Positions 3,447 through 60,916 of a stretch of DNA of 63,296 nt are shown here, piece after piece. Within the stretch, counting starts at the first letter, position 1, and each line of letters starts with the position of its first letter. Location of the stretch: positions 1-63,296 of the IMG/VR virus record IMGVR_UViG_3300044638_006148. The stretch is one strand, 5' to 3'. The notes beneath the pieces were generated by a model. The model searched no databases and had not been told where the DNA came from. It saw only the letters and a program-made list of their open reading frames with translations. Made by a program: the position numbers and the translations under genes. The DNA is from a virus.

Positions 3447-4945
3447 TTTGTATTTACGATTGAAAATGTTAATTGTCTCTTATAAGTATCTTTTTCTCCT
3501 GAAGTATTCACTTGGATATCAACAAAATATTGATTTGGGATTTTGTCTCTCATATCAAATATGAAGTAATACTCGTTTGGTGTTCTGTTCAATGGAGTCC
3601 AATCTTGTACTAATACTTCTGTGGTACCTTCTGTGACATAAACTCTATAGAACCCTGAAACGTCTAATAATAGTTGTTGACCCGTATATGCCTTTTTGAT
3701 TGTTACACCAACCTTACGAATGTCTGTATTAAGAATCTTCTCATTTTGAAGGATACCGTAGAAATCAAATCCGTAAATTTCAGGGTCTTTAGATACAGAA
3801 CCTATTTGAATACCTGAAGTATATGGTTGTAATGTGAATTGATTTGTTACATTTGGAATGGATTGACCATTTATAGTAAGACCAGACCATACATCGTAAA
3901 ATAAACATGGTGTCGGGAAATTAGCAAATCCATTAGGTACTGTAACTTCGTATATTCCCTTAGTTTTGAGACAAGTATTTAATGAAGTCATTCCAGTTAT
4001 TGCTGTACCATTTCTATCTTCGATTCTAACGAATGGGTCTGAATCAAGATTTACGAAATCTCCATTCTGATAGACATACAAGAATAACTTGTTTTCTTGG
4101 TTTTTGAGGAATAGGTTTCTATCATCTTCTACAAAATCATTGTAATTTGTTAAAAGATAAGGTTGATAGAAAGTTTGAGTATGTCTTGAGAAAAATGCCA
4201 CACTATAACTTTCCGTAAGACCTGTGATATTTTCTATTTGAGGTAGGTATGATATACCCCAACCTGTGACACCAGTAATTGACCCATTTAAGATTCCATT
4301 AATCTCGGCGGTCATATTCATGTTCAAATCTTCATTACCAAGTTCAAAATGTTGTCGTGCAACGATAGTTAAACCTGAGTAATTAACAACACCTTGGTTT
4401 ACATTGTTGTAGATACCATTTTGAGACCATCCAGAGAGAGTTGTTGTTTGATACCAGTTAGATGGTCGTGTGGAATATGCTCGACTGTCAACGTACGTTA
4501 AAGGGGAAATTCCACCATTCGCACTATTCTGTGCAATGTTGAAATCATTGTAGTCGTAACCAACTCCTTCATCCCAAAATTGAGGTTGACCTGTGGTTCC
4601 TGAAAACTTAGGGATTCTCCATAATATTAAGTCGAACGAGGTGGCTCTTCTTCTTTCGTTTGACATGAATGAATTTAATAATTCATTATCAAATGATGAC
4701 GTGTTTGTCATTTGGAGAGTGTGAGTCATTGCTGAAGTACACCCTGTGGATATAACACCTGAACTTATGTTTTCTTCTAATAAAGATAAATCTAAATCAA
4801 AGATAAATCTTGTGAAACCAAAGTTTGGGACAATTAAATCCGAAGCACCGAAATTCAACTCAATTACAGGATTTCTTCCCGTATTAACATATGAGTTTGA
4901 AATGATGGTATTGTTTTTATTTATATAAGACCTTAAGATCGACAT
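3443..4945 (-). CDS. Putative virion structural protein, beta-rich (tail/baseplate)
   Basis: 500 residues, rich in Asn, Thr, Gly and Tyr, with no signal peptide or membrane segment. The pattern is beta-strand rich, with a C-terminal immunoglobulin-like stretch (about 400-500: strands such as YRVYVTEGTTEVLVQDW and PNQYFVDIQVNTSG). It follows the OB-fold baseplate gene with a 21-bp gap and precedes the 2979-3446 gene with a 4-bp overlap, so it belongs to the tail module. I cannot assign a T4 counterpart. A baseplate wedge or tail-associated protein is the best inference. Confidence 0.6.
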   Translation of the reverse strand: MSILRSYINKNNTIISNSYVNTGRNPVIELNFGASDLIVPNFGFTRFIFDLDLSLLEENISSGVISTGCTSAMTHTLQMTNTSSFDNELLNSFMSNERRRATSFDLILWRIPKFSGTTGQPQFWDEGVGYDYNDFNIAQNSANGGISPLTYVDSRAYSTRPSNWYQTTTLSGWSQNGIYNNVNQGVVNYSGLTIVARQHFELGNEDLNMNMTAEINGILNGSITGVTGWGISYLPQIENITGLTESYSVAFFSRHTQTFYQPYLLTNYNDFVEDDRNLFLKNQENKLFLYVYQNGDFVNLDSDPFVRIEDRNGTAITGMTSLNTCLKTKGIYEVTVPNGFANFPTPCLFYDVWSGLTINGQSIPNVTNQFTLQPYTSGIQIGSVSKDPEIYGFDFYGILQNEKILNTDIRKVGVTIKKAYTGQQLLLDVSGFYRVYVTEGTTEVLVQDWTPLNRTPNEYYFIFDMRDKIPNQYFVDIQVNTSGEKDTYKRQLTFSIVNTK

Positions 4946-9157: not shown

Positions 9158-9176
9158 ATCTATAAATACTTTTTTA

Positions 9177-27516: not shown

Positions 27517-28217
27517 TATACTAAATTTGTAATTTTTTTTATAACATCAATTAATACTAATACGTCTTTTTCACAGTATTCTACAATACCTTTGATGTCT
27601 TCATTTATCCAATATGCTTCATGTACCTTATTTCCTTTTATCTCCATATTTTTTGAAGATTCAACACCCATAGAAACACACATCAATTCTAATGAAGCGA
27701 TCGTACCATAGCCACCGTATTGCCAAAGTTCCTTGGTATCTAATGCCTTAATTTCCCATGGTTTGGTGTCATGACCTGGTAATATTTTTGGGGGTAATAA
27801 TCCATTAATAATCATTCTTTTTGCCAACATAGGAATATCAAATCCTTTGACGTTGTGACCACAAAGGAAAAATCCTAATTCTCCAACCCTACGTAAAAGT
27901 TTCTGAACTTCTTGTAACAATTCTTGTTCATTTTTGTTACTAAATGATTGCATCTTTATTTCACCTTTATCGGTGACAAAGGCAACACTTACACAAGCAA
28001 TTTTTGCAAACTCGGGAACTAATGCTGAACGGTTATAGAAGATACTATCAAGAGATAATGTTGCGTCTTCAGGAAATCTTTTTTGAAACCAATCAAGATA
28101 ATTAATAAAAATAGACGAAAGTTCAGGTCTGTTTTTCCTCAATGTTTCCCAATTGGATTCAATTCCAACTGTTTCAATATCAATAAAAAGTAGTTTTTCT
28201 AAAGGTATGTTTATCAT
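27516..28217 (-). CDS. DEDD-family 3'-5' exonuclease
   Basis: 233 residues. ExoI FIDIETVG (about 11-18, Asp and Glu), ExoII GHNVKGFDIPML (Asn-x-x-x-Phe-Asp) and ExoIII YCEKDVLVLIDVI (Tyr-x3-Asp) give the DEDDy pattern of DnaQ/PolB-type exonucleases. It resembles the stand-alone exonucleases related to the proofreading domain of family B polymerases. Substrate may be DNA or RNA. It shares its start/stop with dut (1-bp overlap), suggesting a small nucleotide-metabolism pair inside the glycan block. Confidence 0.82.
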   Translation of the reverse strand: MINIPLEKLLFIDIETVGIESNWETLRKNRPELSSIFINYLDWFQKRFPEDATLSLDSIFYNRSALVPEFAKIACVSVAFVTDKGEIKMQSFSNKNEQELLQEVQKLLRRVGELGFFLCGHNVKGFDIPMLAKRMIINGLLPPKILPGHDTKPWEIKALDTKELWQYGGYGTIASLELMCVSMGVESSKNMEIKGNKVHEAYWINEDIKGIVEYCEKDVLVLIDVIKKITNLV

Positions 28218-29434
28218 GATTTATTTGCAATATCAATATAAAATTGTTTTCTATCCTTAGTGACGTTATTCAAGTCATATTTGTCTTTTACTGTTTCATA
28301 CAACCTTTCACCCATATCCTTAATGAGATTGGGGTTTTTAACTAATTTCTCGATGAACTTAGACCAGTCAGCGTGATTTCTTGATTCGTTTACCAAAATT
28401 GCATTTCCATCTACAAAATTTCCGTGTTCTAAACAATGTTTCAAGTCAATGGTGTAAGGACCGATGTTTGACGCAATTACTGCTTTTTTATAGAAACCTG
28501 CCTCAATCACTTTGAGCTGTGATTTCATTCTATTAAACATAGTGTTTTTGATTGGAGCTAAAGAAATATCAAATTTTGAATAATTCTTTGCATAACCAGT
28601 TACTGGTTTAGTCCATACTCTTAGATATGATTCGTTTTTTTCGCTATCATAATCTTCTTGATTATACTTGAGTAGATAATTTTTATAATCGTCAGACACA
28701 ATCTTATAATTTTGAGTAAATACTTTTTCATATTGTGCCCACACAGTTTCTGCCGGAAGAATATTTCTCTTGGTATGTTGTCCTGTCTGAGCATTTATCT
28801 CAGTGACAGAACCCCTTGTATCGAATCCGCACAATACATACTGAACTTTATCTTTTAGGTGTATGAGTTTCGAAAAACCAGCATCCAATAATTGGATATC
28901 GTGCAAGTGAGAGGATCCTCCTAACCAACCAATTCTAACTTTATCAGATTCTTCAGTTTTTTCTTTGAATTGGGGTTCGTTTGGATTAATTGCGTTCGGG
29001 AATACAAATACATTTTTATTGTACTTTCGAATTTCATCCGCAAAAATTTCAGTTGTAGTTGTAACAAACTTTGCAACTTTGAGGTTTGCAACAATCTTCT
29101 CGTTAATCTTGTTGATACGAATAATATCATGGATTGGGTGTTCTTTACCTGGCATCCAATAATCATCAATATCACAAACTGTAACAATTCCCAACGAATT
29201 TAACGTTTGAATAAGGTTGTTTGCGTTCTCAAAATCTGATCCTATACTTCTATGAAAGGCGACAATTTGATATTGTTGCCAAAAATTCATGTCTGTGTAT
29301 GAGGGTTCATAGACAATGTCTACGTGAAACTCATCAGGATATTGATTTTGAAGAAAAATGTGTGGGTCAACCGAACGGAATTTCCCAACTCCCGATCGAT
29401 CTGATGGGACAACTAATACTTTAATTTTTGACAT
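28214..29434 (-). CDS. GT4-type glycosyltransferase
   Basis: 406 residues. N-terminal KVLVVPSDRSGVGKFRSVDP, a central VRIGWLGGSSHLHDIQLL where the second Rossmann domain begins, and a C-terminal donor site KFDISLAPIKNTMFNRMKSQL-type stretch ending KVIEAGFYKKAVIAS (Glu at the ribose position). Typical phage/polysaccharide GT4 of full length. It is the right-hand end of the glycan block; a 53-bp gap separates it from 29488-30120, the largest gap in the minus run, so a promoter there is possible. Confidence 0.75.
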   Translation of the reverse strand: MSKIKVLVVPSDRSGVGKFRSVDPHIFLQNQYPDEFHVDIVYEPSYTDMNFWQQYQIVAFHRSIGSDFENANNLIQTLNSLGIVTVCDIDDYWMPGKEHPIHDIIRINKINEKIVANLKVAKFVTTTTEIFADEIRKYNKNVFVFPNAINPNEPQFKEKTEESDKVRIGWLGGSSHLHDIQLLDAGFSKLIHLKDKVQYVLCGFDTRGSVTEINAQTGQHTKRNILPAETVWAQYEKVFTQNYKIVSDDYKNYLLKYNQEDYDSEKNESYLRVWTKPVTGYAKNYSKFDISLAPIKNTMFNRMKSQLKVIEAGFYKKAVIASNIGPYTIDLKHCLEHGNFVDGNAILVNESRNHADWSKFIEKLVKNPNLIKDMGERLYETVKDKYDLNNVTKDRKQFYIDIANKS

Positions 29435-36216: not shown

Positions 36217-37251
36217 ATGGCAATTGGAGTTAAAATAATGAGTGTTAATTTGAGTGGTTTTACTACCAATGTTACATATCTGCCTGAATCTGGAGGAACA
36301 ATTGATTTGGGAACACAAGTGTTTCCATTTGATTATTTATCAGATTATTATTGGGGAACTTACAATTGTTACGTACCTACTTATGCCACCGTATATTCCA
36401 TTCAAGTTATTGCTCCTACACCTACTCCAACTGTTACACCAACACTAACACCAGGATTGACTCCAACTGCAACGGAAACGCCAACACAAACGCCAACCAA
36501 TACAGCTACTCCTACAAATACCCAAACTTCTACACCAACAAATACTAGTACACCAGGATTTACTCCTACACAAACTCCAACAAATACTGCAACACCTACA
36601 AATACGAAAACACCTACTTCGACAACCACTCCAACACCAACACCAACAAATCTACCGTTCAGTGCATTTATCTTCCCTGAACCATTGGATTCGGTATCTC
36701 AAGCACAGTTGGGTCAATATATGTTTAATAATGGTTCAAGCTGGTATGGTTTCGGTAACAGTGGTGGTGTTCCAAGTACTGTAGATTATGCAAATAATAT
36801 GTTAATTTATTCGCAATTCTCAGGATGGACTGGAGGAAACGGAAACTTCATTACTAATGTGACATATTTGAATGGATCGATTAGACAATTACCGGGTTCA
36901 GGAGTTGATAGTTTTGGTTGTGTACAAAACCAATATACATTTGGAACGATTGAAGTTAATACAACAGAAATAAATCCAACAATTCAATACAATTATACCA
37001 TTTGGATTCCACTTGCAGGTGTTGGTGGAAGTTTAACAAATATGACGGTTGATATTGGACAGGCAACACCTTGTAGTAATACAGATTTGGATGGTATCAT
37101 TCCAGATCCGACTTTATCCGTACTAAATGTAACGGTACCATCAGGTCGAATATTACCAGCTGGTGTATATAGAGTTCTTTGGAACTTCACAATGCCTCAG
37201 TCGTTCCCATTAACATCTTCGATTTATTTCAAGGGGGAGAGTAAAGAATAA
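36217..37251 (+). CDS. Fibre protein with PT stalk and beta-rich distal domain
   Basis: 344 residues. A head of about 65 residues, a stalk of Pro-Thr-Asn repeats (about 66-146) and a distal domain of about 200 residues, beta-rich ([40 protein letters not shown]). The distal part resembles a small beta-sandwich presented on a stalk. ATG 36217 follows an AT-rich stretch (AAGTATATATAGAT). No catalytic motif seen. Confidence 0.6.
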
Positions 37252-40200: not shown

Positions 40201-42630
40201 GGAGACCCATTAGTAGAGATTGCAGTTAGTGGTACTCAAGACGGGGTAAATAAAACCTTTACATTAGCAAGTACTCCAACAGGAATTACACAACAATTTT
40301 TCTTGAACGGTCAATTACTTATCGAGGGAGATGACTACACCATAACAGGAACAACAATTCAATTTGTTAGTGGTAGTCCTGCACCTGAGCCATCAGATAA
40401 ACTTATTTTCTACGGAAGTATAGGTTTTACTTCAAGTAGTTCAGGTACATCAGGAACTAGTGGAACCTCAGGTACATCAGGTTCAAGTGGGACCTCAGGG
40501 ACTAGTGGAAGTTCGGGAACTAGCGGTACGGATGGTACTTCGGGAACATCAGGTACTAGTGGTACTTCAGGAACGAGTGGTACATCAGGTAGTAGCGGTA
40601 CAGACGGTACTTCAGGAACTAGCGGTAGTTCGGGAACTAGTGGTACGTCAGGAACAAGTGGAACCTCAGGTACAACACCTGTAAATCAAATCACAGGATT
40701 TGGAACGACTAATACCTTACCTAAATTCACGGGAAGTACGAGTATTGGAGACAGCACATTACAAGAAGTATCGGGTAATTTAGGATTAGGAATTACACCG
40801 AGTGCATGGGTAGGTGCAACAGGTTTTCAAGTTCAATATGCAACAGTCGAAGGACGATCCTCTTTACCATCTTTTGCGGAATACGGAGCTAATACTTTTT
40901 CAGATTCGGGAGTACGAAAATATATCGCTAGTGATTTTGCAAGTAGATATACTCAATTTCAAAGTAATCATTTTTGGTTTATCGCCCCTTCAGGAACGAC
41001 AGGTAATGCTATATCCTTTACCCAAGCGATGACCTTAACCGCTGCTGGTAGGTTGCTTATTAACACACCTACCGAATCAACATTCACGTTGGATGTTAAT
41101 GGAACAGGGAGGTTTAGTGGGGTTCTAAACGGTACTAGTGCTATATTTAGCTCAGATTTTTTAGCTAATGAAACAAGTAAAGTAGGAATTTCTTTTGCTA
41201 GTGGATTTGGTCAAATTAATTCTTGGGGAGCGAATACTTCCACTTATGGTGGTTTGAAATTTCAACTTAGTGCATCTAATGGTGGTACTATTAATGCATT
41301 AACACTTACTACAGGAACGGCAACTTTTTCAAATACCGAGACAACTTTAAACTTTAACCCGCAAACTAATCTATTAGCATCATATTACTATTTAAATTTT
41401 GGTGGAGGTTCTATAATGTATAGAAATAACACTGATATCTATTTTGGTTCAAATTCAAAATACGGTTCAGCAGGTACTACTGTAGCAAATTATACTTCTG
41501 CAAATGGTATGGGAATGATTACTATGGATGGTGGGCAATTAAACTATCAAGCAAATTTAACTTCTGTAAGTGCAGGAACTGCTTATGGGATGCCTGTAAG
41601 GTTTTCAATTACAGGTGATGGTAATGTCGGTATCAACACGGCTACTCCATTTACTAAACTTGAAGTAGTTGGTGGTAATAATCTACCACCATCAACTGGT
41701 ACACAAAATTATACAATTGCATTAAGAGACCCAACATCAATGGTAGCAGGAGTTGGTGGATCAATATTATTACAAGGTTTTAAAACATCAACAACTGCAA
41801 TTGGTAATTTTGCCTATATAGCAGGAAAAAAAGAAAACGGAACTGCGGGTAATGAAGCAGGTTTTTTATCTCTCGGAACATTTGATTCGAGTGGAATTCC
41901 AACCGAAAAAATGCGTATCACCTCAGGAGGTAACGTCTTAATTGGAACGACAACGGATGGCGGTTATAAACTATTTGTAAATGGTCAAAGTTATTTAGAT
42001 GGTTACAATTTTGCATCAAGTATTCAATATACTAGGGCCGCTAGTGATACGGTTAATCCTGCAGGTGGTAATGGAATTTTGGTTTTTGCTGGTGGAAATG
42101 CTCAAATGAGAATGAATACTTCTAATGTCATTAATTTTGACATGTATAATGGAGGTAGTCCTCACACTGCTTTACAAATTCGACAAAATGGAAATACAGT
42201 TAGAGTAAATTCACCAGATAATGGATTATCTCTTGCTCTAGCATTTGGAGGGGTGGAATATGGGTATATTGGATCAACTGGTTCGTTTAGTGGAGCTTTA
42301 TTAGGATATTCAGTAAATGGAGGATATGTTTATTTATCTGCTTCTTCCACTTGGGTTGCGGCATCCGATAGGAATAGAAAAAAGAATTTTGAAAGTTACA
42401 ACAAAGGACTTGCAGAAATTTGTAATCTACAACCTACACTATTTAACCTAAAAACTCAAAGTGATGATGAACCAAAAATAGCTGGTTTGATCGCACAAGA
42501 GGTTGGAGAGCACATCACAGAAGCATTTAGTGATGGAGAGTTTATTGGTATTGACTACAATGTTTTGACAGTAACAATTATAAATGCAATCAAAGAATTG
42601 AAACAAGAAATTGACTCACTAAAAAAATGA
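37282..42630 (+). CDS. Giant tail-fibre protein with GTS stalks and S74 chaperone
   Basis: 1782 residues. N-terminal domain about 1-290 (RRRLGMQVFVQETGNVYQYTI, a phage fibre attachment module), then four Gly-Thr-Ser tracts separated by folded modules, two of which are near-duplicates (39463-39699 and 40189-40425). A receptor-facing beta-helical region follows (about 1130-1690). The C-terminus is an S74 intramolecular chaperone with ASDRNRKKNF (Ser1695) as the autoprocessing serine; it trimerises the fibre and is then cut off. The end is LKQEIDSLKK, shorter than its paralogs, and a relic of the paralogous tail follows out of frame at 42649-42687. Confidence 0.78.
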   Translation: MFPYKNPTTKSQSSLTVSVPRNAVFGNTFSILNIGGHMEVWNLDDLGLILTASTYPAQIQLSANTIPINFTRGTGTAFSPDSVSLNSDNISSGRRRLGMQVFVQETGNVYQYTIPNYEILWNNLSGLTGSSAVTQSGYSTIVNNLSQPGRNFIAAWTGSTIEGVNGVTTENARWRIFKGTDVQITGGTYFSAITTLDLFNSTGGTISISGFNGSVTGGTYDSETESLTLNNSDGTDVIITGITSGTGSALSVGDGVTTVNPVSGITFSGAVVTNSGEGNIIVNITGATAGTSGTAGTSGTSGSSGTAGTTGTSGTSGTSGTSGTSGLTGSSGTSGTSGSSGSSGTNGTSGTSGLTGSSGTSGTSGLNGSSGTSGTSGSSGSSGTTGTSGSSATSGTSGTSGTSGLNGSSGTSGTSGNSGSSGTTGTSGSSGLNGLSNAFFNYQAKTTLTTGDPLSGYLIWNATQNIATQINISDTDSYGDNIDIFLTNLVSGTTITIQDQSDHTKYQSWLIGSVVDQTTYWEIPVSLITYTHGFGDNDPILFIITTTPSGTSGTSGQSGTSGTSGTTGTSGTSGTSGSSGTSGTSGTSGTSGTSGSSGTSGSSGTTGTSGTSGSSGTTGTSGSSGTFGTSGTSGTDGSSGTSGTSGSSGTSGSSGTSGSSGTTGTSGTGGIDGSSGTSGTTGTSGTSGTSGTTGTSGSGGTSGTSGIDGSSGTSGTSGSSGTAGTSGVSPSGDPLVEIAVSGPQNNVNKTFTLASTPTGLTQQFFLNGQLLIEGDDYTLTGATIQFVSSRPAPDPSDKLIFYGSIGLSASTSGTSGTSGTSGTSGIDGTSGTSGVGGTSGTSGTSGSNGSSGTSGTSGTSGTDGSSGTSGTSGGDGSSGTSGTSGTDGSSGTSGTTGTSGSSGTSGTSGTDGSSGTSGTSGSSGTTGTSGTSGTSGSSGTSGTSGTTGTSGTSGTDGTSGTTGTSGTSGVSPSGDPLVEIAVSGTQDGVNKTFTLASTPTGITQQFFLNGQLLIEGDDYTITGTTIQFVSGSPAPEPSDKLIFYGSIGFTSSSSGTSGTSGTSGTSGSSGTSGTSGSSGTSGTDGTSGTSGTSGTSGTSGTSGSSGTDGTSGTSGSSGTSGTSGTSGTSGTTPVNQITGFGTTNTLPKFTGSTSIGDSTLQEVSGNLGLGITPSAWVGATGFQVQYATVEGRSSLPSFAEYGANTFSDSGVRKYIASDFASRYTQFQSNHFWFIAPSGTTGNAISFTQAMTLTAAGRLLINTPTESTFTLDVNGTGRFSGVLNGTSAIFSSDFLANETSKVGISFASGFGQINSWGANTSTYGGLKFQLSASNGGTINALTLTTGTATFSNTETTLNFNPQTNLLASYYYLNFGGGSIMYRNNTDIYFGSNSKYGSAGTTVANYTSANGMGMITMDGGQLNYQANLTSVSAGTAYGMPVRFSITGDGNVGINTATPFTKLEVVGGNNLPPSTGTQNYTIALRDPTSMVAGVGGSILLQGFKTSTTAIGNFAYIAGKKENGTAGNEAGFLSLGTFDSSGIPTEKMRITSGGNVLIGTTTDGGYKLFVNGQSYLDGYNFASSIQYTRAASDTVNPAGGNGILVFAGGNAQMRMNTSNVINFDMYNGGSPHTALQIRQNGNTVRVNSPDNGLSLALAFGGVEYGYIGSTGSFSGALLGYSVNGGYVYLSASSTWVAASDRNRKKNFESYNKGLAEICNLQPTLFNLKTQSDDEPKIAGLIAQEVGEHITEAFSDGEFIGIDYNVLTVTIINAIKELKQEIDSLKK
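38150..38579 (+). repeat. Gly-Thr-Ser triplet tract A
   Basis: About 143 residues of GTS/GSS/GLT-type triplets in the 37282-42630 fibre. Three further tracts lie at 38926-39462, 39714-40188 and 40438-40673. Confidence 0.85.
38926..39462 (+). repeat. Gly-Thr-Ser triplet tract B
   Basis: Near-continuous Gly-x-Ser/Thr triplets; includes interruptions GIDG and GGIDG. ACTAGT is the dominant Thr-Ser codon pair. Confidence 0.85.
39463..39699 (+). repeat. 79-residue module, copy 1
   Basis: First copy of a beta-rich module (VSPSGDPLVEIAVSG to LIFYGSIG). The second copy at 40189-40425 is in frame and differs at a small minority of residues, so this is a recent internal duplication or gene-conversion pair. 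Confidence 0.85.
39714..40188 (+). repeat. Gly-Thr-Ser triplet tract C
   Basis: GTS triplets between the two copies of the 79-residue module. The number of triplets here would set the spacing of the modules. Confidence 0.85.
40189..40425 (+). repeat. 79-residue module, copy 2
   Basis: Second copy of the module at 39463-39699 (VSPSGDPLVEIAVSGTQ ... LIFYGSIG). Confidence 0.85.
40438..40673 (+). repeat. Gly-Thr-Ser triplet tract D
   Basis: Last triplet stalk before the beta-rich receptor-facing part of the fibre. Confidence 0.85.
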
Positions 42631-42648
42631 AGACGAACCAAAAACTAT

Positions 42649-42687
42649 GAATTAAAATCCATACTACAAAGAAACAATATAGTATAA
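42649..42687 (+). pseudogene. Relic of a paralogous S74 fibre C-terminus
   Basis: Just downstream of the fibre stop (TGA 42628-42630), 12 codons in a different frame spell ELKSILQRNNIV followed by TAA. This is identical to the C-terminal end of the fibre encoded at 45025-48924. The DNA also matches apart from a couple of bases. It indicates that the C-terminus of 37282-42630 was swapped or truncated by recombination or frameshift, leaving the old end behind. Confidence 0.75.
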
Positions 42688-42741
42688 AACTATTTAACAA
42701 TAAACTAAGAGCATAAACACCACAGAAAAAAGTTCCATAAA
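42688..42741 (+). promoter_or_regulatory. Shared 5' leader, copy 1
   Basis: Leader with the elements CTATTTA, AATAAACTAAG and GTTCCATAAA directly before ATG 42742. The same elements precede ATG 45025 and ATG 48981. The leader is better conserved than needed for translation alone, so it may hold a promoter, a ribosome-binding context or a recombination point. Confidence 0.55.
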
Positions 42742-48000: not shown

Positions 48001-48924
48001 GCAAACGCAAACGTAGCAGTTGGAGGTAATTCGATGAGAAATAATACTACTGGAGCGGCAAACGTAGCTATTGGTTTCGATGCAATGTCACAGAACACTA
48101 TAGGTGCCGGCATCACAGCAGTTGGGGTCTGTGCGTTGAGAAATAATACAACTGGTTATGGAATGACGGCCGTAGGATACAGAGCAGCACCATCATCAAC
48201 ATGTCGTTTTATTACTGCAATAGGATTTGGAGCTTTATGTCTTGCTACTGCGGCTTGTCACAATACCGTCGTAGGCGCATTAGCAGGAAGAAACGTCACC
48301 ACAGGTATTGCAAACATTGCTGTAGGATATTACGCTTTAGGTAAAAGTACAACTGGTAGTGGAAATACCGTTTTAGGTCACTACGCGCAGACTTCAATAA
48401 CAGCAGGTGTAAATAACACCATAGCCGTGGGTTGTTGCGCATGTACTTCAGCAACAACAGGCCATTCAGTTTGGGGTAACTCATCAAACAATACTTGCAA
48501 CTGTGTTTATGTGGCATGGTCTACTGTTTCCGACTGTAGAGACAAAACCAACGTTCAAACATTACCATCCAAATTAGGTTTAGATTTAATCAAGAAACTA
48601 CGTCCCGTATCCTTTAACTGGGACCATAGAGATACTTACGTTAGAGAATGTAGCTATGAGTATGGTACAAAAGACGGTAACTTAGTAGGAACAAAAGAAC
48701 ATTACGGTCTAATTGCCCAAGAATTAAAATCCGTACTAGAAGAATTAGATGTTAAATTTGATGGTTTAGGACATGATGACGATAAAGATGCTTATCGAGT
48801 TACATACGAAGAATTAATTCCATCAATAATTAAATCAATACAAGAACAACAATCACAAATAGAGTCTCTTAAATCTGAAAACGATGAATTAAAGTCCATA
48901 CTACAAAGAAATAATATAGTATAA
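45025..48924 (+). CDS. Tail-fibre paralog 2 with about 53 NTAVG repeats, S74 chaperone
   Basis: 1299 residues. Shared N-terminal domain (about 1-120), a short GTS stalk, then about 53 copies of a 17-residue unit, consensus NTAVGxxALxxNTTGxx (nucleotides 45784-48460). Such repeats build a left-handed beta-roll comparable to trimeric autotransporter heads. The S74 chaperone starts STVSDCRDKTNV (Ser1169) and ends in a coiled coil finishing LQRNNIV. Cys is unusually frequent inside the repeats. Its distal 130 residues are close to those of 48981-52712. Confidence 0.82.
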   Translation: MITRVGTYSQIKGVSVSSPCLVATSDSITLSGTQTIDGVFVDVGDRVLVKNQSPGSDNGIYVVSEGSWDRAVDMSLNIDVFQGLQVYINSGTTTGDKVFILNTPNPIILGTTNLNFVISVASVGSSGTSGSSGTSGTSGTSGTSGGTGSGGTSGTSGTDGTSGTSGSSGTSGTSGTDGSSGTSGTSGTDGTSGTSGSSGTSGTSVAVSGTTDYIVRFTSATTIGDSSTCQLSNGDLLVNNNVSVGMGGGSVTSNTRVGLNALSGNTTGIGNTAVGACALRTNTVGVLNTAIGNCSLVNNVNGSRNTAVGFAALRYNTTACYNTAVGAQSLRDNTTGCRNTAVGTYALCLNTVGVCNTAVGMNSLANNTTGSRNTAIGAGALFINNNSDNTAVGYFSLVSNTTGYFNTALGTSALRSNTIGGRNTAVGFQALFSNSTGIRNTSVGQSALQQNTVGQGNTAVGYIALFLNTSGSLNTAVGREALCANTTGFQNTALGSYALKNNTTGYFNTGVGISALQQNTTGAKNTAVGLNALLNNTGGFRNTAMGQSALQQNTNGSSNTAVGYHALIANSTGAFNTAMGCGALRNNNATAITAVGYRALYSNTTGAQNTAVGARALRQNTIGSSNIAVGTYALYSNTGGVCNIAVGRNALLFNQVGSQNVAIGTDALFASVGNNNVAIGWEASRNNTSGSLNIALGSRTLRNNTIGNWNTGLGTYALYCNTTGTGNAAVGGLSLFSNTIGANNTAVGFCALRSNTIGGSNTSIGYNALSCNTTGTLNVAIGTRALLLNTIGCTNVAVGDRALCSNVSGNRNVAIGQEAMRFNTASNNTAVGYYALRSNTTGTCNTAIGNGAMQCNTISDNNTAVGTNALFNNTTGTGNTAVGRRALEANTTGRYNVGMGVNSLVFNTTGSCNTGLGLSALQSNTTGYANTAIGFSSLCVNTTGFYNVSIGFNAGSGSLGTCQNVIIGAKAGLGTAGNSNVAVGYNSLRCNIANANVAVGGNSMRNNTTGAANVAIGFDAMSQNTIGAGITAVGVCALRNNTTGYGMTAVGYRAAPSSTCRFITAIGFGALCLATAACHNTVVGALAGRNVTTGIANIAVGYYALGKSTTGSGNTVLGHYAQTSITAGVNNTIAVGCCACTSATTGHSVWGNSSNNTCNCVYVAWSTVSDCRDKTNVQTLPSKLGLDLIKKLRPVSFNWDHRDTYVRECSYEYGTKDGNLVGTKEHYGLIAQELKSVLEELDVKFDGLGHDDDKDAYRVTYEELIPSIIKSIQEQQSQIESLKSENDELKSILQRNNIV
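45784..48460 (+). repeat. 17-residue (51-bp) NTAVG tandem repeats, about 53 units
   Basis: Protein-level repeat NTAVGxxALxxNTTGxx, with N-V-A-I-G and N-I-A-V-G variants. Few units are identical at DNA level; a few are shortened (for example NTAVG after NNNSD). Confidence 0.88.
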
Positions 48925-52800: not shown

Positions 52801-54189
52801 ATGGCATGTAGTAAATATACACTCACGAACACTGGTTCAACAATAGTTAACTTCAGTTATAGAAGATGCGACGATTCATTTTGGGACTACCAAGTTGAAT
52901 TAGCTCAGAATGAAACAAAAAATATTTGGGTTATCGATGGAACTTATACAGTAGCCTCATCATTCAGAGGGTCTATTGTCTTGGCTAATGCCGGTTCATT
53001 TCCTCCAACTTCTGTAACACCAACAAATACTCCAACGCAAACACCAACCCCTACTAATACTACAACACCAACAAATACGGCGTCTAATACACCAACTCCA
53101 AGTGTGACTGCTACGGGTACTGGAACACCAACTCCTACACCTACAAATACTGGAACAGGTACACAAACTCCTACACCAACTAATACTGCAACTCAGACTC
53201 CTACGCCAACTAATACTGGAACTCAGACTCCTACACCAACTAATACTGGAACTCAGACTCCTACACCAACTAATACTGGAACAGGTAGTACACCAACTCC
53301 TACACCAACTAATACTGGAACAGGTAGTACACCAACTCCTACACCGACAAATACCGGAACTCCAACTCAAACAGTAACTCCAACTAACACTGGTACTCCA
53401 ACACCTACTCAAACACTAACTCAAACTCCAACTAATACTGGCACTCCAACACCTACTGCAAATAACACATTTACAGTATATTCAGGATTAACATCTGATG
53501 CTGCATGTGGACAATATTTCTCAACAGTAGTTGTTTACGGTAATAATTCACAGTTTGATTTGTCAAGTCAATTCTCAAACATTTCTACATTCCCACCATC
53601 AATCAGTATGACAGGATTCATCCAAAATAATGGATTTGTTTTTGAATTAGATTCAAACGGATTTGTCCTAGGATTTGGAACTTTATGTTCAACTTTAACT
53701 CCAACACCAACAAATAGTTCAACACCTACTGTAACTCCAACAAATACCGAAACTCCTACTGTAACACCAACAAATAGTTCAACACCTACTGTAACTCCAA
53801 CAAATAGTTCAACACCTACTGTAACTCCAACAAATACCGAAACTCCAACTCAAACAGTAACTCCAACTAACACCGGTACTCCAACACCTACTGTAACCTC
53901 AACAAATACACCATCACCGACTCCAACGTTTGGATATTATACTTATAGTTTAGGTACAGGTGCAACCGCAAATGATGCTTGTGTTGATTTTAGTGGTTCA
54001 CCTAACACAATTTATGGTACGGTAGCAGGTGGACCTGGTCCTAATGCTGGTGAATTTTTATACACAACTCCAGGTAATCCTCCGACTAATCCAGTCGCTA
54101 ATGGATATTACTCAAACGGAACTGCAGTTTTCATAGTGTCGGGAGGTTTGGGACAGATAACATCTGTAGACCCTAATGGATGCCTCTAA
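52801..54189 (+). CDS. PT-stalk fibre protein (MACSKY head), two stalks
   Basis: 462 residues. A head of about 65 residues ([36 protein letters not shown]) almost identical to the head of 54200-55339. Then a Pro-Thr-Asn stalk (about 67-220), a small domain (about 221-298), a second stalk (about 299-375) and a final domain (about 376-462) with [18 protein letters not shown]. The ATG is preceded by TATTTATA and by AAGGAAAACA, one of the few Shine-Dalgarno-like sites here. A mucin-like spacer with Thr-rich O-glycosylation potential. Confidence 0.65.
52999..53924 (+). repeat. Pro-Thr-Asn stalk repeats
   Basis: TPTPTNTGT-type repeats in two tracts (52999-53458 and 53698-53924). Several near-identical 24-36 bp DNA units lie in the first tract, so slippage or recombination could change stalk length. 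Confidence 0.85.
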
Positions 54190-55434: not shown

Positions 55435-56697
55435 ATGAAAATTTTTATTCAGATAGCTTCTTACAGAGACCCACAGTTGGTTCCAACCCTTAAAGATATG
55501 ATTGCAAATGCAAAAAAACCAAAGAATTTGGTTTTCGGTATCGCAAGACAATTTAGTGAATCTGACGGATTCGATAATTTAGATGAATACAGGAAAGATA
55601 AAAGATTCAAAATCTTGGATATTCCATATCAGGAATCTAAGGGAGTTTGTTTTGCCAGAAATCTTACCCAACAATTATATGATGGTGAAACATACACCCT
55701 ACAAATTGATTCTCACATGAGATTCATTAAGGATTGGGATGATGTGTTAATTAAGATGATTAAAGGGTTACAAAAGGATGGATATAAGAAACCTTTACTA
55801 ACAGGTTATGTGCCGTCATTTGACCCTGAAAACGACCCAGCAGGTAGATCACAAGACGCTTGGAGAATGGCATTCGACAGATTTATTCCTGAAGGAGCGG
55901 TATTCTTCTTGCCTGAAACAATTCCAGGTTGGAAAGAAATGACAAAACCCGTAACCTCAAGATTTTACTCAGCTCACTTCTGTTTCACTTTAGGTCAATT
56001 CTCAACTGAAGTACAACACAATCCTGAATACTATTTCCACGGAGAAGAAATCTCTATCGCAGCAAGAGCATACACTTGGGGTTATGATTTATTCCACCCA
56101 CACATTCCTGTCGTGTACCACGAGTACACTCGTAAAGGTCGCACTAAGCAGTGGGATGATGACAAGACATGGGGAGATAAAAACAAACACTCTCACCTAA
56201 CAAATAGAAAACTATTTGGTATGGATGGTGAAACTCAAGAAGGACATGACGGGCCGTACGGATTTGGTACTGTTAGAACTTTAAGAGAATATGAAAGATA
56301 TGCGGGTTTATTATTTGAAAAAAGAGCGGTTGACCAACACTGTTTGGATAAAAACTATGCACCTAGTCCTGTAATTGAAGATGAAGAGGAGTGGAAAAAA
56401 AGTTTCTCAACAATATATAAACATTGTATTGATATTGGATATTCAAGTGTGCCTGAAAAAGATTATGATTTTTGGGTGGTTGCATTCCACGGTCCAAATG
56501 ATGAAACGATTTACCGAAGAGATGCCGATAAAAATGAAATTGCTGGATTTATGAGAGACCCTGACAAATATTGTAAAGTTTGGAGAGAATTCCCAACAAC
56601 AATTTTACCATCATATTGGGTTGTATGGCCTCACTCAGAATCTAAAGGTTGGTGTGATAGGCTAACTGGACAACTAAACCATAATATCGTGTCTTAA
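55435..56697 (+). CDS. Glycosyltransferase of the PF11397 (Skp1 GlcNAcT-like, GT60) type
   Basis: 420 residues. Start KIFIQIASYRDPQLVPTLKD and the metal motif LQIDSHMRF (DSH in place of DxD, about 93-95) are the marks of the PF11397 family, whose eukaryotic members add GlcNAc to hydroxyproline of Skp1. Other family-like stretches: GVCFARNLTQQLYDGE and FCFTLGQFSTEV. First of five plus-strand transferases; TATAAATC ends two bases before the ATG. Because its relatives modify proteins, it is a good candidate for fibre glycosylation. Confidence 0.72.
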   Translation: MKIFIQIASYRDPQLVPTLKDMIANAKKPKNLVFGIARQFSESDGFDNLDEYRKDKRFKILDIPYQESKGVCFARNLTQQLYDGETYTLQIDSHMRFIKDWDDVLIKMIKGLQKDGYKKPLLTGYVPSFDPENDPAGRSQDAWRMAFDRFIPEGAVFFLPETIPGWKEMTKPVTSRFYSAHFCFTLGQFSTEVQHNPEYYFHGEEISIAARAYTWGYDLFHPHIPVVYHEYTRKGRTKQWDDDKTWGDKNKHSHLTNRKLFGMDGETQEGHDGPYGFGTVRTLREYERYAGLLFEKRAVDQHCLDKNYAPSPVIEDEEEWKKSFSTIYKHCIDIGYSSVPEKDYDFWVVAFHGPNDETIYRRDADKNEIAGFMRDPDKYCKVWREFPTTILPSYWVVWPHSESKGWCDRLTGQLNHNIVS

Positions 56698-56698
56698 T

Positions 56699-57652
56699 AT
56701 GAGTAAAAAATTAATAATACATCAACCTACAAATCACTATAGCAACAGATATAAGTATTATAATGTTTTTTTTGATAACTTAGTAAAAAAATTGTCAGAA
56801 AAAAATGAGGTTATTGTTGATAGATATTATAAAAACGTTCATAGAGGACGTGTTAATGTTGAGTTAGGATGGCATGAAGACCAAGATTTTTTTGTCGAAA
56901 TGCAAGATTGTGAAATGATTATAGAAGACTATGACACCAAAGAAACTCAAATTCTAAGTGTGTCTGATGACTTAACTCCCACTTCATTAAATCTTCAGTC
57001 CTATGACAACACAAAAAAAATATTTATATCTCAGTTCGTACGAAATAAGGTATATCATCATGTTGCCAAAGAACACCAACACAAGTATTTCCCATGGATT
57101 TATTTCCCGTCTAATGAATACGATTTAGAATCGTTTTATCAAAAAAGACAAGAAATAACACCTAAGGACGATAGAATGTATTTTAGAGGAGAGACTTTTA
57201 GTAGAACAATTTTGAACCACTTTACTCCTGATGTATTTTATGGCGGCAATTCCATTGGAGGATTTGATACATATGTAAATGAACTCATTAAATTCAAATT
57301 AGGATTATCAGTTGCTGGCCGAGGTGAGATGTGTTATAGAGATATTGAATATATGGGACTTGGTGTTCCATTCATTAGATTTGAATACACAACCGAGTTT
57401 TTCGAACCACTAATTCCAAATGTTCATTACATTTCCGTTGACAGACCTGATGATTTATTTGATTGGATGAAGTTGGATAGACTCGGTGAAAAACATCACG
57501 CGGAGTTAATTATTAAAAGATACTTGGAAGTAAAAGACGACGATGAATTTTTGAACTTTATTTCCAAAAATGCCAAAGAATATTACAATAAATATTTGAG
57601 TCCATCATCGAGTGTGGACTTTACAATCAAAATGTTAGGTTATGAAGTTTAA
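56699..57652 (+). CDS. Glycosyltransferase, GT-B-like
   Basis: 317 residues. RMYFRGETFSRTILNHF followed by the donor-side pattern KFKLGLSVAGRGEMCYRD and EYMGLGVPFIRFEY is typical of exostosin/CAP10-like GT-B enzymes. The N-terminal domain is less conserved. One base after its upstream neighbour and overlapping the next gene by 11 bp. Donor unknown. Confidence 0.62.
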   Translation: MSKKLIIHQPTNHYSNRYKYYNVFFDNLVKKLSEKNEVIVDRYYKNVHRGRVNVELGWHEDQDFFVEMQDCEMIIEDYDTKETQILSVSDDLTPTSLNLQSYDNTKKIFISQFVRNKVYHHVAKEHQHKYFPWIYFPSNEYDLESFYQKRQEITPKDDRMYFRGETFSRTILNHFTPDVFYGGNSIGGFDTYVNELIKFKLGLSVAGRGEMCYRDIEYMGLGVPFIRFEYTTEFFEPLIPNVHYISVDRPDDLFDWMKLDRLGEKHHAELIIKRYLEVKDDDEFLNFISKNAKEYYNKYLSPSSSVDFTIKMLGYEV

Positions 57653-58376
57653 TGAAATACCTAAGTTTGTGGTGAACTTAGAAAGAAGACCCGACCGATT
57701 AGAATCAATCAAATCAGAGATGGAATACATTGGTTGGGATTATGAATTATTTCCCGCAGTCGACACAAACTCACATGTTGGATGTTCATTATCACACATC
57801 GAAATTATAAAGTTGGCTAAAGAAAGAAATTATGAGTGTGTATTAGTTGTTGAGGATGATTGTTCGGTGATGCCATACGCAAAGTCTCTACTTGAAAAAA
57901 TTGAAGTTGAACTTGATAACTTGGAATTTGGTGTAATCAATTTGGCTCCAACATTGAACAGACCTGTGTTGAAACATGATACTCTTGAAACATTGATAGA
58001 CATAACAAATTTGCCACCCTGTCTACCACACCATAGAGATATATTCGCGACTAACATGATACTATATCATCAATCAATATACGATGATTTGTTGGAATTA
58101 GAAGAACCTAGTAAGTTAGGATATTATGCTATAGACGACTTTATATTCAAGTTTATTTCTTCAAAGAAACAAAGTTATATTCCAATTTTACCCATTGGCC
58201 CACAGCATGGTGGATGGTCCGATGTTTCCAATGGCCAATACAATAACTTTTATGTACAAACATATAATTGGAATGGATATTGCCCATTTAAAATTCCTGG
58301 TGAGTTTTTGGACCAACAGAGAAACGAAGAACTTAAACGAAAAAAAGAAATGAAAGATTTTTATTATGTCAGTTAA
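57642..58376 (+). CDS. Family 25 glycosyltransferase
   Basis: 244 residues. FVVNLERRPDRLESIKSEME, GCSLSHIEIIKLAKE and VLVVEDDCSV are the GT25 signature (LPS galactosyltransferases and collagen hydroxylysine galactosyltransferases). The family moves galactose to LPS or to collagen-like protein, so it fits both hypotheses for the glycan. Overlaps both neighbours by 11 bp. Length is short but complete. Confidence 0.8.
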   Translation: MKFNEIPKFVVNLERRPDRLESIKSEMEYIGWDYELFPAVDTNSHVGCSLSHIEIIKLAKERNYECVLVVEDDCSVMPYAKSLLEKIEVELDNLEFGVINLAPTLNRPVLKHDTLETLIDITNLPPCLPHHRDIFATNMILYHQSIYDDLLELEEPSKLGYYAIDDFIFKFISSKKQSYIPILPIGPQHGGWSDVSNGQYNNFYVQTYNWNGYCPFKIPGEFLDQQRNEELKRKKEMKDFYYVS

Positions 58377-59247
58377 ATTTATAACCGCAATTTATAATGA
58401 TTTATATGGTACTGAGTTCGGTGGAAGAATTGGACGAGCAGGTCATTATAGACGAAGTTTATTATCTTTATTAAAGATGACAGACGCAGACTTTCTGTGT
58501 TATACCTCACAGAGAGAGTTAGAATCTTTAGAACAATATTATTACGAAGAATGTTCCATCTCGAGAGAAAAACTCAAATTCCAAGTGTTTGATATTGCAG
58601 ATACAAAGTTTAGAGATATTATCAATCAACATAAAAATCTTGAAGTAACCAAACAAAGTGATAGATGTGTTGAAATTCAATTCAGCAAATTTCATTGGTG
58701 GTGGAATGAAGACAAGTCGTATGACTACTACTATTGGATAGACGCAGGTTTATCTCATTGCGGTTTATTTGCACAGAAATATTTGGGTACAAGTGATTAT
58801 TATGCTCAAAATTATGAATGTAGTTTATTTAATAATTTATTTTTACAGAACTTAATAGATAAGACTGGTGATAAATTTTTGTTAGTCGGTAAAGACAATG
58901 TTAGACATTTTTGGGCCGGTACCGTACACCCTAGATGGTATACTGAGTTTGATGCAAGCATTCACGTGATTGGAGGTATTTTTGGTGGACGTAGAGATTT
59001 GTGGGATAATGTTGTAACCTTGTTTGAAAACTATCTCGAGAATATTATTGTGACTGATAAAAGTATTCCACATGAAGAAAACGTAATGTCATTAATGTAT
59101 TTCAACAACAAAGAGTTATTTGAATTAATCAAATTCGACCATTGGTGGTGTAGAGATAACGCACCAAGAGAAATCCCCGATAACTTTTTTGATAACTATA
59201 TAAGCTTTAATAAAATATTTGAAGAATTAAACGGAATTTATGAGTAA
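58366..59247 (+). CDS. HtrL/YibB-like putative glycosyltransferase
   Basis: 293 residues. The acidic YYWIDAGLSHCGLF and VIGGIFGGRRDLWDNV segments, with an early VKFITAIYNDLYG, match the HtrL/YibB family, a GT-A-like group in LPS clusters. HRPRWY-like and HHxxx sites are not obvious, so activity is inferred. Overlaps its two neighbours by 11 and 8 bp. Confidence 0.62.
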   Translation: MSVKFITAIYNDLYGTEFGGRIGRAGHYRRSLLSLLKMTDADFLCYTSQRELESLEQYYYEECSISREKLKFQVFDIADTKFRDIINQHKNLEVTKQSDRCVEIQFSKFHWWWNEDKSYDYYYWIDAGLSHCGLFAQKYLGTSDYYAQNYECSLFNNLFLQNLIDKTGDKFLLVGKDNVRHFWAGTVHPRWYTEFDASIHVIGGIFGGRRDLWDNVVTLFENYLENIIVTDKSIPHEENVMSLMYFNNKELFELIKFDHWWCRDNAPREIPDNFFDNYISFNKIFEELNGIYE

Positions 59248-60916
59248 TATAACATTAGTAACAGGAATTTGGGATATCGGTAGAGATGAACTTAAGGAAG
59301 GTTGGAGCCGACCGTTTCAACATTATTTGGATAAATTTGAACAACTATTAAAAGTTGAAGAAAACTTAATAATATTCGGTGACGAAGAATTAAGATCTTT
59401 CGTAGAAACAAGAAGAAACCCTGAAAACACACAATTTATCACCCGACCACTAAGTTGGTTTACCAACTCAGAATTTTTTCCATTAATTCAAAAAATTAGA
59501 ACGAATCCAGAATGGTATAATCAGTCGGGTTGGTTAAAAGAATCCACACAGGGTCGTTTGGAAAACTATAATCCATTGGTCATGTCAAAAATGTTTTTGT
59601 TACATGATGCCAAAATTATGGGTAGATTTGATTCCGAATATATATTTTGGATTGATGGAGGATTAACAAATACCGTTCATCCAGGTTATTTCACCCACGA
59701 TAAAGTATTGGATAAATTAACAAAATATGTTTCAAAGTTTTCATTTATATCATTTCCTTACGATGCAGAAAAAGAAATTCATGGGTTTGAATATTCTAAG
59801 TTAAATTCAATCGCAGGAGATAAAGTTAATAAAGTTGCAAGAGGAGGGTTCTTCGGTGGACCCAAACACACAATTAGTGATGTAAATGGAATTTATTATG
59901 GACTGTTAAAAAGTACATTAGAAGAAGGATACATGGGTACTGAAGAATCTATATTCAGTATTATGTGCTACAAACATTCTGACCTATTCAATTATTTTGA
60001 AATCGAATCCAATGGATTAGTTGGTAAATTTTTCGAAGACTTGAAGAATGATACCCTGAAGGCTAAAAATGAAAGTTCTGTTCAAGTTGTTAATAATTTG
60101 GATACAAACAAAGTAGGTCTCTACGTAATCACGTTCAATAGTCCAAAACAATTTAAGACTTTAATTGATTCTATGTTGGCGTATGATAAAGATTATATTA
60201 ACAAGACAACTAAGTTTTTGTTAGATAATTCAAGCGACTTGTCAACTACCGCGGAATACTCGGAGATTTGTAAAGAATTTGGATTCGAACACATTAAAAA
60301 AGATAATTTGGGAATATGCGGGGGTAGACAATGGATTGCAGAACACTTCCAAAATGAAACAGATTTGGATTATCATTTGCTATTTGAAGATGATATGTTT
60401 TTTTATCCAAACGAAGGTAAAGTTTGTAGGAATGGATTCAATCGGTACGTTCCAAACTTATATAGTAAGTCGTTAGAAATTATTAAAAAAGAAAACTTTG
60501 ATTTTTTGAAGTTAAACTTCACAGAATTTTACGGTGATAATAGTGTGCAGTGGAGTTGGTACAACGTGCCACAACATGTTAGAACAGAATTTTGGCCAGA
60601 TAAACCTAGATTACCTGAAATTGGATTAGACCCTAATGCACCTAAAACACAATTTAACTCAGTGTTATCTCATAAGGGAGTTCCTTACGCTAAAGGTGAA
60701 ATTTACTACTGTAATTGGCCTCAGATTGTTAGTAGAATTGGAAACCAAAAGATGTTTTTAGATACAACATGGGCACATATTTTTGAACAAACCTGGATGA
60801 GCCACATGTATCAATTGGTAAAAAAAGGAGAATTGTACCCTGGATTGTTATTACTAACACCTACAGAGCATAACCGTTTTGACCACTATTCTCGTGATTT
60901 AAGAAAAGAGAACTAA
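59240..60916 (+). CDS. Two-domain transferase: HtrL-like + GT2-like
   Basis: 558 residues. Residues 1 to about 275 parallel the preceding gene (NITLVTGIWDIGRDE, YIFWIDGGLTNTVHPG, ARGGFFGGPK). From about 290 a GT2-type domain follows: KVGLYVITFNSPKQFKTLID, LDYHLLFEDDMFFY (DD metal site) and later THAFYEH-like C-terminal parts (as printed DTTWAHIFEQTW). Two catalytic modules in one chain, like 25277-26902. Its stop overlaps that of the convergent HNH gene. Confidence 0.68.
   Translation: MSNITLVTGIWDIGRDELKEGWSRPFQHYLDKFEQLLKVEENLIIFGDEELRSFVETRRNPENTQFITRPLSWFTNSEFFPLIQKIRTNPEWYNQSGWLKESTQGRLENYNPLVMSKMFLLHDAKIMGRFDSEYIFWIDGGLTNTVHPGYFTHDKVLDKLTKYVSKFSFISFPYDAEKEIHGFEYSKLNSIAGDKVNKVARGGFFGGPKHTISDVNGIYYGLLKSTLEEGYMGTEESIFSIMCYKHSDLFNYFEIESNGLVGKFFEDLKNDTLKAKNESSVQVVNNLDTNKVGLYVITFNSPKQFKTLIDSMLAYDKDYINKTTKFLLDNSSDLSTTAEYSEICKEFGFEHIKKDNLGICGGRQWIAEHFQNETDLDYHLLFEDDMFFYPNEGKVCRNGFNRYVPNLYSKSLEIIKKENFDFLKLNFTEFYGDNSVQWSWYNVPQHVRTEFWPDKPRLPEIGLDPNAPKTQFNSVLSHKGVPYAKGEIYYCNWPQIVSRIGNQKMFLDTTWAHIFEQTWMSHMYQLVKKGELYPGLLLLTPTEHNRFDHYSRDLRKEN

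Follow-up and report, generated by a model that had tools for sequence, protein, structure and literature searches.

Four tandem fibre genes and the junction behind P1

The window, i.e. the whole stretch of DNA analysed, is one virus record of 63,296 bases, which carries four large fibre genes in tandem in its right half, designated P1 to P4 (Table 1). The MITR N-terminal domains of P2, P3 and P4 are encoded by DNA that is 78–84% identical over 351 bases; the start of P1 differs from these. Collagen-like repeats are found in all four fibres, those of P4 lying just under the Pfam cut-off. At their C-termini all four match Peptidase_S74 (Pfam PF13884), with scores for P1, P2, P3 and P4 of 30.6, 40.9, 42.3 and 42.6 bits, respectively, above the gathering cut-off of 22 bits. 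Each S74 domain contains a GxIAQE-type motif and a Ser-x4-Lys dyad with its two residues five positions apart (SDRNRK, SDIKLK, SDCRDK and SDCRDK in P1, P2, P3 and P4), the spacing reported for the self-cleaving Ser/Lys dyad of S74 proteins (PMC3742443). The length of the C-terminal coil varies, and the coils of P3 and P4 (48886–48924 in P3) are about 12 residues longer than those of relatives with the same S74 type (L072–L074). In addition, the last 12–14 residues differ between P3 and P4, which hints at another exchange point at the very tip. S74 modules cleave themselves off after trimerisation, as established for endosialidases. Because the modules would be shed in this way, neither the P1 tip nor the P3-type tip should matter much in the mature virion.

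Table 1. Features of the fibre gene region (window coordinates).
Feature	Position	Strand	Basis or remark
Giant fibre P1, 1782 aa	37282..42630	+	ORF; ends in TGA
P1 layout, from N- to C-terminus: a domain that relatives conserve, collagen-like GTSG repeats, an S74 module			Pfam Collagen and Peptidase_S74; N-terminal relatives
P1 C-terminal module, residues 1551–1782, taken as the imported piece	41932..42627	+	BLASTP to L008
SDRNRK motif (Ser1695) of P1, predicted self-cleavage site	42364..42381	+	Same spacing in P2, P3 and P4
TGA, native stop of the module taken as imported	42628..42630	+	L008, L009 and L010 stop within 0–2 residues
Filler ATGAAGACGAACCAAAAACTAT between stop and relic	42627..42648	+	Possibly the truncated start of the donor's next gene (ATGA overlap)
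Relic, last 12 codons and stop of a P3-type fibre gene	42649..42687	+	In the P1 frame, behind the P1 stop
Conserved spacer element CTATTTAACAATAAACTAAG with promoter-like TATTTA, 5' of P2	42690..42709	+	Three-way alignment; putative function
Fibre P2, 732 aa	42742..44940	+	MITR N-terminal domain common to P3 and P4; different S74 C-terminus
Fibre P3, 1299 aa	45025..48924	+	Intact gene, matched by the relic at its 3' end
Intact counterpart of the relic, ELKSILQRNNIV and stop, at the P3 end	48886..48924	+	37/39 nt identical
Fibre P4, 1243 aa	48981..52712	+	Closest paralogue of P3; start homologous to the P2 start

Two further observations concern the remainder of the window. Genes with PHROGs matches to glycosyltransferases occur at 28214–29434, in a long minus-strand cluster, and at 55435–60916, after the fibre genes; several of their products could, as far as such matches indicate, modify host or phage glycans. 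The protein encoded at 52801–54189 has 462 residues in the window and 449 in the near-identical contig 3300042924_007202 (L070), a small length polymorphism.

The relic is not part of any open gene and comes after a native stop codon, that of an unrelated gene end. Its translation is ELKSILQRNNIV followed by a stop, identical to the last 12 residues and stop of P3, and both DNA differences from the intact counterpart, which is located 6.2 kb away in the same genome, are silent (AAA/AAG and AAC/AAT). The local alignment score is 35, as against a shuffle mean of 9.6, and none of 2000 shuffles reaches 35. The match was first noticed in a sequence-only reading of the window, and it is confirmed at both the protein and the DNA level. 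The same reading assigned the relic to another frame than P1, which is incorrect: 42649 − 37282 = 5367 = 3 × 1789, placing the relic in the frame of P1. Only six sense codons (AGA CGA ACC AAA AAC TAT) separate it from the P1 TGA, and the open in-frame stretch behind this TGA comprises 18 codons, up to the TAA at 42685. Among 85 distinct 3' flanks of S74 genes in the fetched loci a recognisable sister tail is present only behind P1, and searches for decayed relics behind P2 and P4 gave matches no better than those of shuffled sequence (p = 0.84 and 0.88). Every exact copy of the relic that was found ends or follows a fibre gene of the same virus, and copies in related genomes away from any fibre, which the sequence-only reading had named as evidence against its interpretation, were not seen.

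Beyond the relic, the homology to the P3/P4 junction extends across the spacer and reaches into the beginning of P2, with 84% identity over about 112 bp (BLASTN against the 48.9-kb junction, E = 7e-31 over 112 bp), far beyond chance. Identity amounts to 95% in the relic, 73% in the spacer and 78% in the start of the next gene (against P4). On the 5' side of the relic it drops to 50%, which places the homology boundary at about 42640–42648.

The conserved CTATTTAACAATAAACTAAG element begins two bases past the relic stop and has equivalents 5' of P3 and P4. Upstream of the genes of this genome TATTTA is over-represented (11 of 18, 3.3 expected), as is the exact TATTTATA (5 of 18, 0.5 expected); the latter motif adjoins the relic and is not inside it. 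The enrichment applies to distances of 10–60 bases before gene starts; the TATTTA(TA) motif is observed at 4918, 34302 and 52775 on the plus strand, and, read as TATAAATA, at 9161 and 32105 on the minus strand; further copies are located at 42691, 44973 and 48928. From this distribution the motif is likely to be a phage promoter element. Read on the opposite strand, TATTTATA gives the T4 late motif TATAAATA. A T4-type late promoter TATAAATA overlapping the relic stop was considered and the reading was dropped, the enrichment upstream of genes being unclear both for exact copies (3 against 0.9 expected) and with one mismatch (14 against 10.2 expected). The P2/P3 junction works with the element 5' of P3 and no recognisable relic, and the relic itself is therefore probably not needed by the element.

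The P1 tip and its stop codon

The C-terminal module of P1 is related to the tip of a fibre in another phage (L008), with 181 of 231 residues identical (78%, BLASTP) and 78% identity in the DNA over 698 bp. The remainder of the L008 fibre shows no significant match to P1. More distant copies of the module are present in L009, L204 and L010 (59%, 38% and 35% identity). Among cellular sequences only one weak match to the P1 tip was found, in a Chitinophagaceae MAG, and named phages yielded distant S74 matches only, with 27–39% identity to the P1 tip and 35–49% to the P3 tip.

About 60 related module ends behave like those listed in Table 1 with respect to the position of the stop. The ends of these relatives at the P1 stop indicate that the TGA is the module's own, natural end, that nothing of the module has been lost, and that the relic is no cut-off part of it. 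A frameshift at the C-terminus of the giant fibre, either programmed or mutational, which the sequence-only reading had offered next to past recombination, is rejected on the frame arithmetic; neither of the two remaining frames yields the relic sequence, and the stop in front of it is native to the module. The recombination half of that proposal is well supported, by the S74 tip that P1 has in common with a fibre of another phage that differs in the rest of its sequence, by orthologues with unrelated C-termini, and by the 3' end of a sister gene behind the stop.

Orthologues of P1 were recognised by their N-terminus combined with the same preceding gene. In L083, L089, L109, L111 and L116 the N-terminus is kept, the length ranges from 556 to 2796 residues (2733, 2796, 2030 and 556 in L083, L089, L109 and L111, respectively), and the C-terminus varies; none of these C-termini resembles the one in P1, and for the most part they also differ from one another. 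An S74 end was found in none of the orthologues that are complete enough to see it. Likewise, no genome was found with a P3-type end on a P1-type fibre, in a set in which many orthologue contigs end inside the GTSG repeats, so that assemblies break at these genes. The differing C-termini point to the P1 fibre tip as a place of repeated exchange, and we infer that the present tip is an import.

The 18 filler bases between the stop and the relic were compared with gene starts, since the P1 stop overlaps an ATG (ATGA). Related modules are often closely trailed by a small gene starting with MKTIEPVSIWDNG, and the filler begins with ATGAAGAC, like two of these genes; its likeness to the small-gene starts after related modules corresponds to p values of about 0.02–0.07. 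A truncated start of a MKTIEPVSIWDNG-type gene is suggestive only, with a value of about 0.07 by shuffles and 16 of 704 ATGA sites scoring as high. For a GDS-motif gene start, MKTNQKLWIIGDS (L280, L281), the match was forced by the pattern search and does not exceed chance. Neither gene-start origin is claimed here.

A family of small proteins of about 90–115 residues (MKTIEPVSIWDNGxVxEAxxLNAYA...) is encoded on many viral contigs (L200–L279, L009, L010, L011, L015 and L023), the gene immediately following an S74 fibre gene on a number of these contigs. Two members tested gave no Pfam or PHROGs match; a role as a putative fibre-associated or assembly factor is possible.

Origin of the relic

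The 39 bases quite probably represent an inert recombination scar from an exchanged fibre tip, that is, a vestige of a sister-type 3' end. The tail of an older P3-type gene end, together with the spacer and the start of the next fibre gene, would have been joined at about 42640–42648 to another fibre, whose C-terminal S74 chaperone module was of a different kind and brought its own stop codon. P1 itself would have given up an earlier end of P3 type for the present one; the event would be relatively recent and may have occurred by an illegitimate crossover, not at long homology. The relic would then be leftover sequence lying between the new stop and P2's promoter-like element, and it may persist beside this element because its removal would carry a risk and its retention has no cost. 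Against such a scar, the state before the exchange was not seen among the genomes found, and the scar does not account for the 18 filler bases.

The pattern of change bears on the polarity of the exchange. The relic is the most conserved part of the junction, with 2 changes in 39 positions as compared with 15 in 56 aligned spacer positions, and the probability of two or fewer changes in 39 is 0.0005 at the spacer rate and about 0.06 at the P3/P4 coding rate. The low number of changes, together with their exclusively silent nature, suggests that the relic encoded protein during most of the time since the two copies separated, which would favour the replacement of an end of P3 type that P1 once had over an old passenger cassette. 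Recent gene conversion could mimic this pattern, and we therefore only infer the polarity. The higher identity of the relic than of the spacer fits a recent loss of coding, but it would also fit gene conversion or residual function.

Insertion of a cassette is the strongest of the alternatives, although it is unlikely. P1 would in that case never have had the tail; a block made up of the 13 terminal codons from a P3-like gene, the spacer and a fibre gene of MITR type would have been copied behind P1, with the relic as the passenger 5' edge of the inserted cassette. This would account for the relic, spacer and P2 start forming one homologous block with the P3/P4 junction, and for P2, P3 and P4 being tandem paralogues with related starts, and the filler could be the truncated start of a gene once located behind P1. 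A recent copy, however, should show the same identity in the spacer and the P2 start as in the relic, whereas in an old copy the non-coding relic should have drifted, which is at odds with two changes, both silent; gene conversion could blunt the drift argument.

A functional role of the relic as a C-terminal extension is improbable. Programmed or leaky readthrough of TGA-A would add RRTKNYELKSILQRNNIV to some P1 chains and give them a longer C-terminal coil, in agreement with the position of the relic in the P1 frame and with the silent-only differences from the coding copy. The in-frame position, however, amounts to a one-in-three coincidence. The module's relatives terminate at the same position, in most cases by TAA, L008, L009 and L010 run straight into another gene, so that the extension is not conserved, and the other S74 gene flanks contain no convincing tail. 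Furthermore, TGA is an ordinary stop in this genome (13 of 56 genes), no RNA structure follows it (z = +1.5), and the tail falls in the portion that S74 proteins discard. Readthrough is possible but unsupported. Slightly less probable still is its extension to a leaky TGA that yields a minority of fibres with the sister-type coil RRTKNYELKSILQRNNIV, in which the chaperone coils of P1 and P3 could form mixed trimers and two fibre variants would arise from one gene.

It is very improbable that the bases owe their retention to a regulatory function for P2, either as the upstream part of a promoter or as a leader, and resemble a protein end only through descent from the end of an ancestral upstream gene. 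They do abut the conserved element with its enriched TATTTA core, but the same element stands 5' of P3 with no recognisable relic, the changes within the relic fall on third positions of codons, and the region gave no above-chance signal for a sigma-70 promoter, a terminator or repeats.

An assembly or base-calling artefact can practically be dismissed: short-read assemblies can misjoin among repetitive paralogues such as these, but the separately assembled contig IMGVR 3300044675_004040, which is 99.9–100% identical to the window and carries substitutions at 36522, 45240, 45279, 48391 and other positions, has an identical junction over 161 bases, making the frame-restoring base-calling error envisaged in the sequence-only reading very unlikely, and a single-base error in the TGA would leave unexplained why the relatives of the module stop there too.

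Comparison with known systems

Exchange of fibre tips sets the host range of phages, and the exact joints are usually erased. At the P1 tip the joint can be read with a precision of about ten bases. If the scar is read correctly, a self-cleaving chaperone would be exchangeable together with the adjoining distal part, with a breakpoint just upstream of the promoter-like element of the next gene. The region offers a worked example of an accepted process, not a new principle.

Modular exchange of the C-termini of tail fibres and tailspikes is described for T7/K1F-type phages and for the receptor-binding proteins of Klebsiella phages (PMC6872550). As in these systems, a conserved N-terminal attachment domain is combined with exchanged distal parts, and a C-terminal self-cleaving chaperone is present in some members and absent in others. 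Unlike in these systems, a fragment of a gene end of sister type, still legible and in frame, has been left behind the new stop, and four fibre genes stand in a row in the same genome. The Peptidase_S74 intramolecular chaperone auto-processing domain itself (PF13884; PMC3742443) is ordinary in all four fibres, with differences in the lengths of the C-terminal coils. The relic also resembles the gene-end pseudogene fragments that illegitimate recombination leaves in mosaic phages, being a short non-coding vestige at a homology boundary, but differs from them in that its intact counterpart in the same genome makes its origin readable without another genome. Fibre mosaicism is already a known process, and what is unusual here is only the legibility of the scar.
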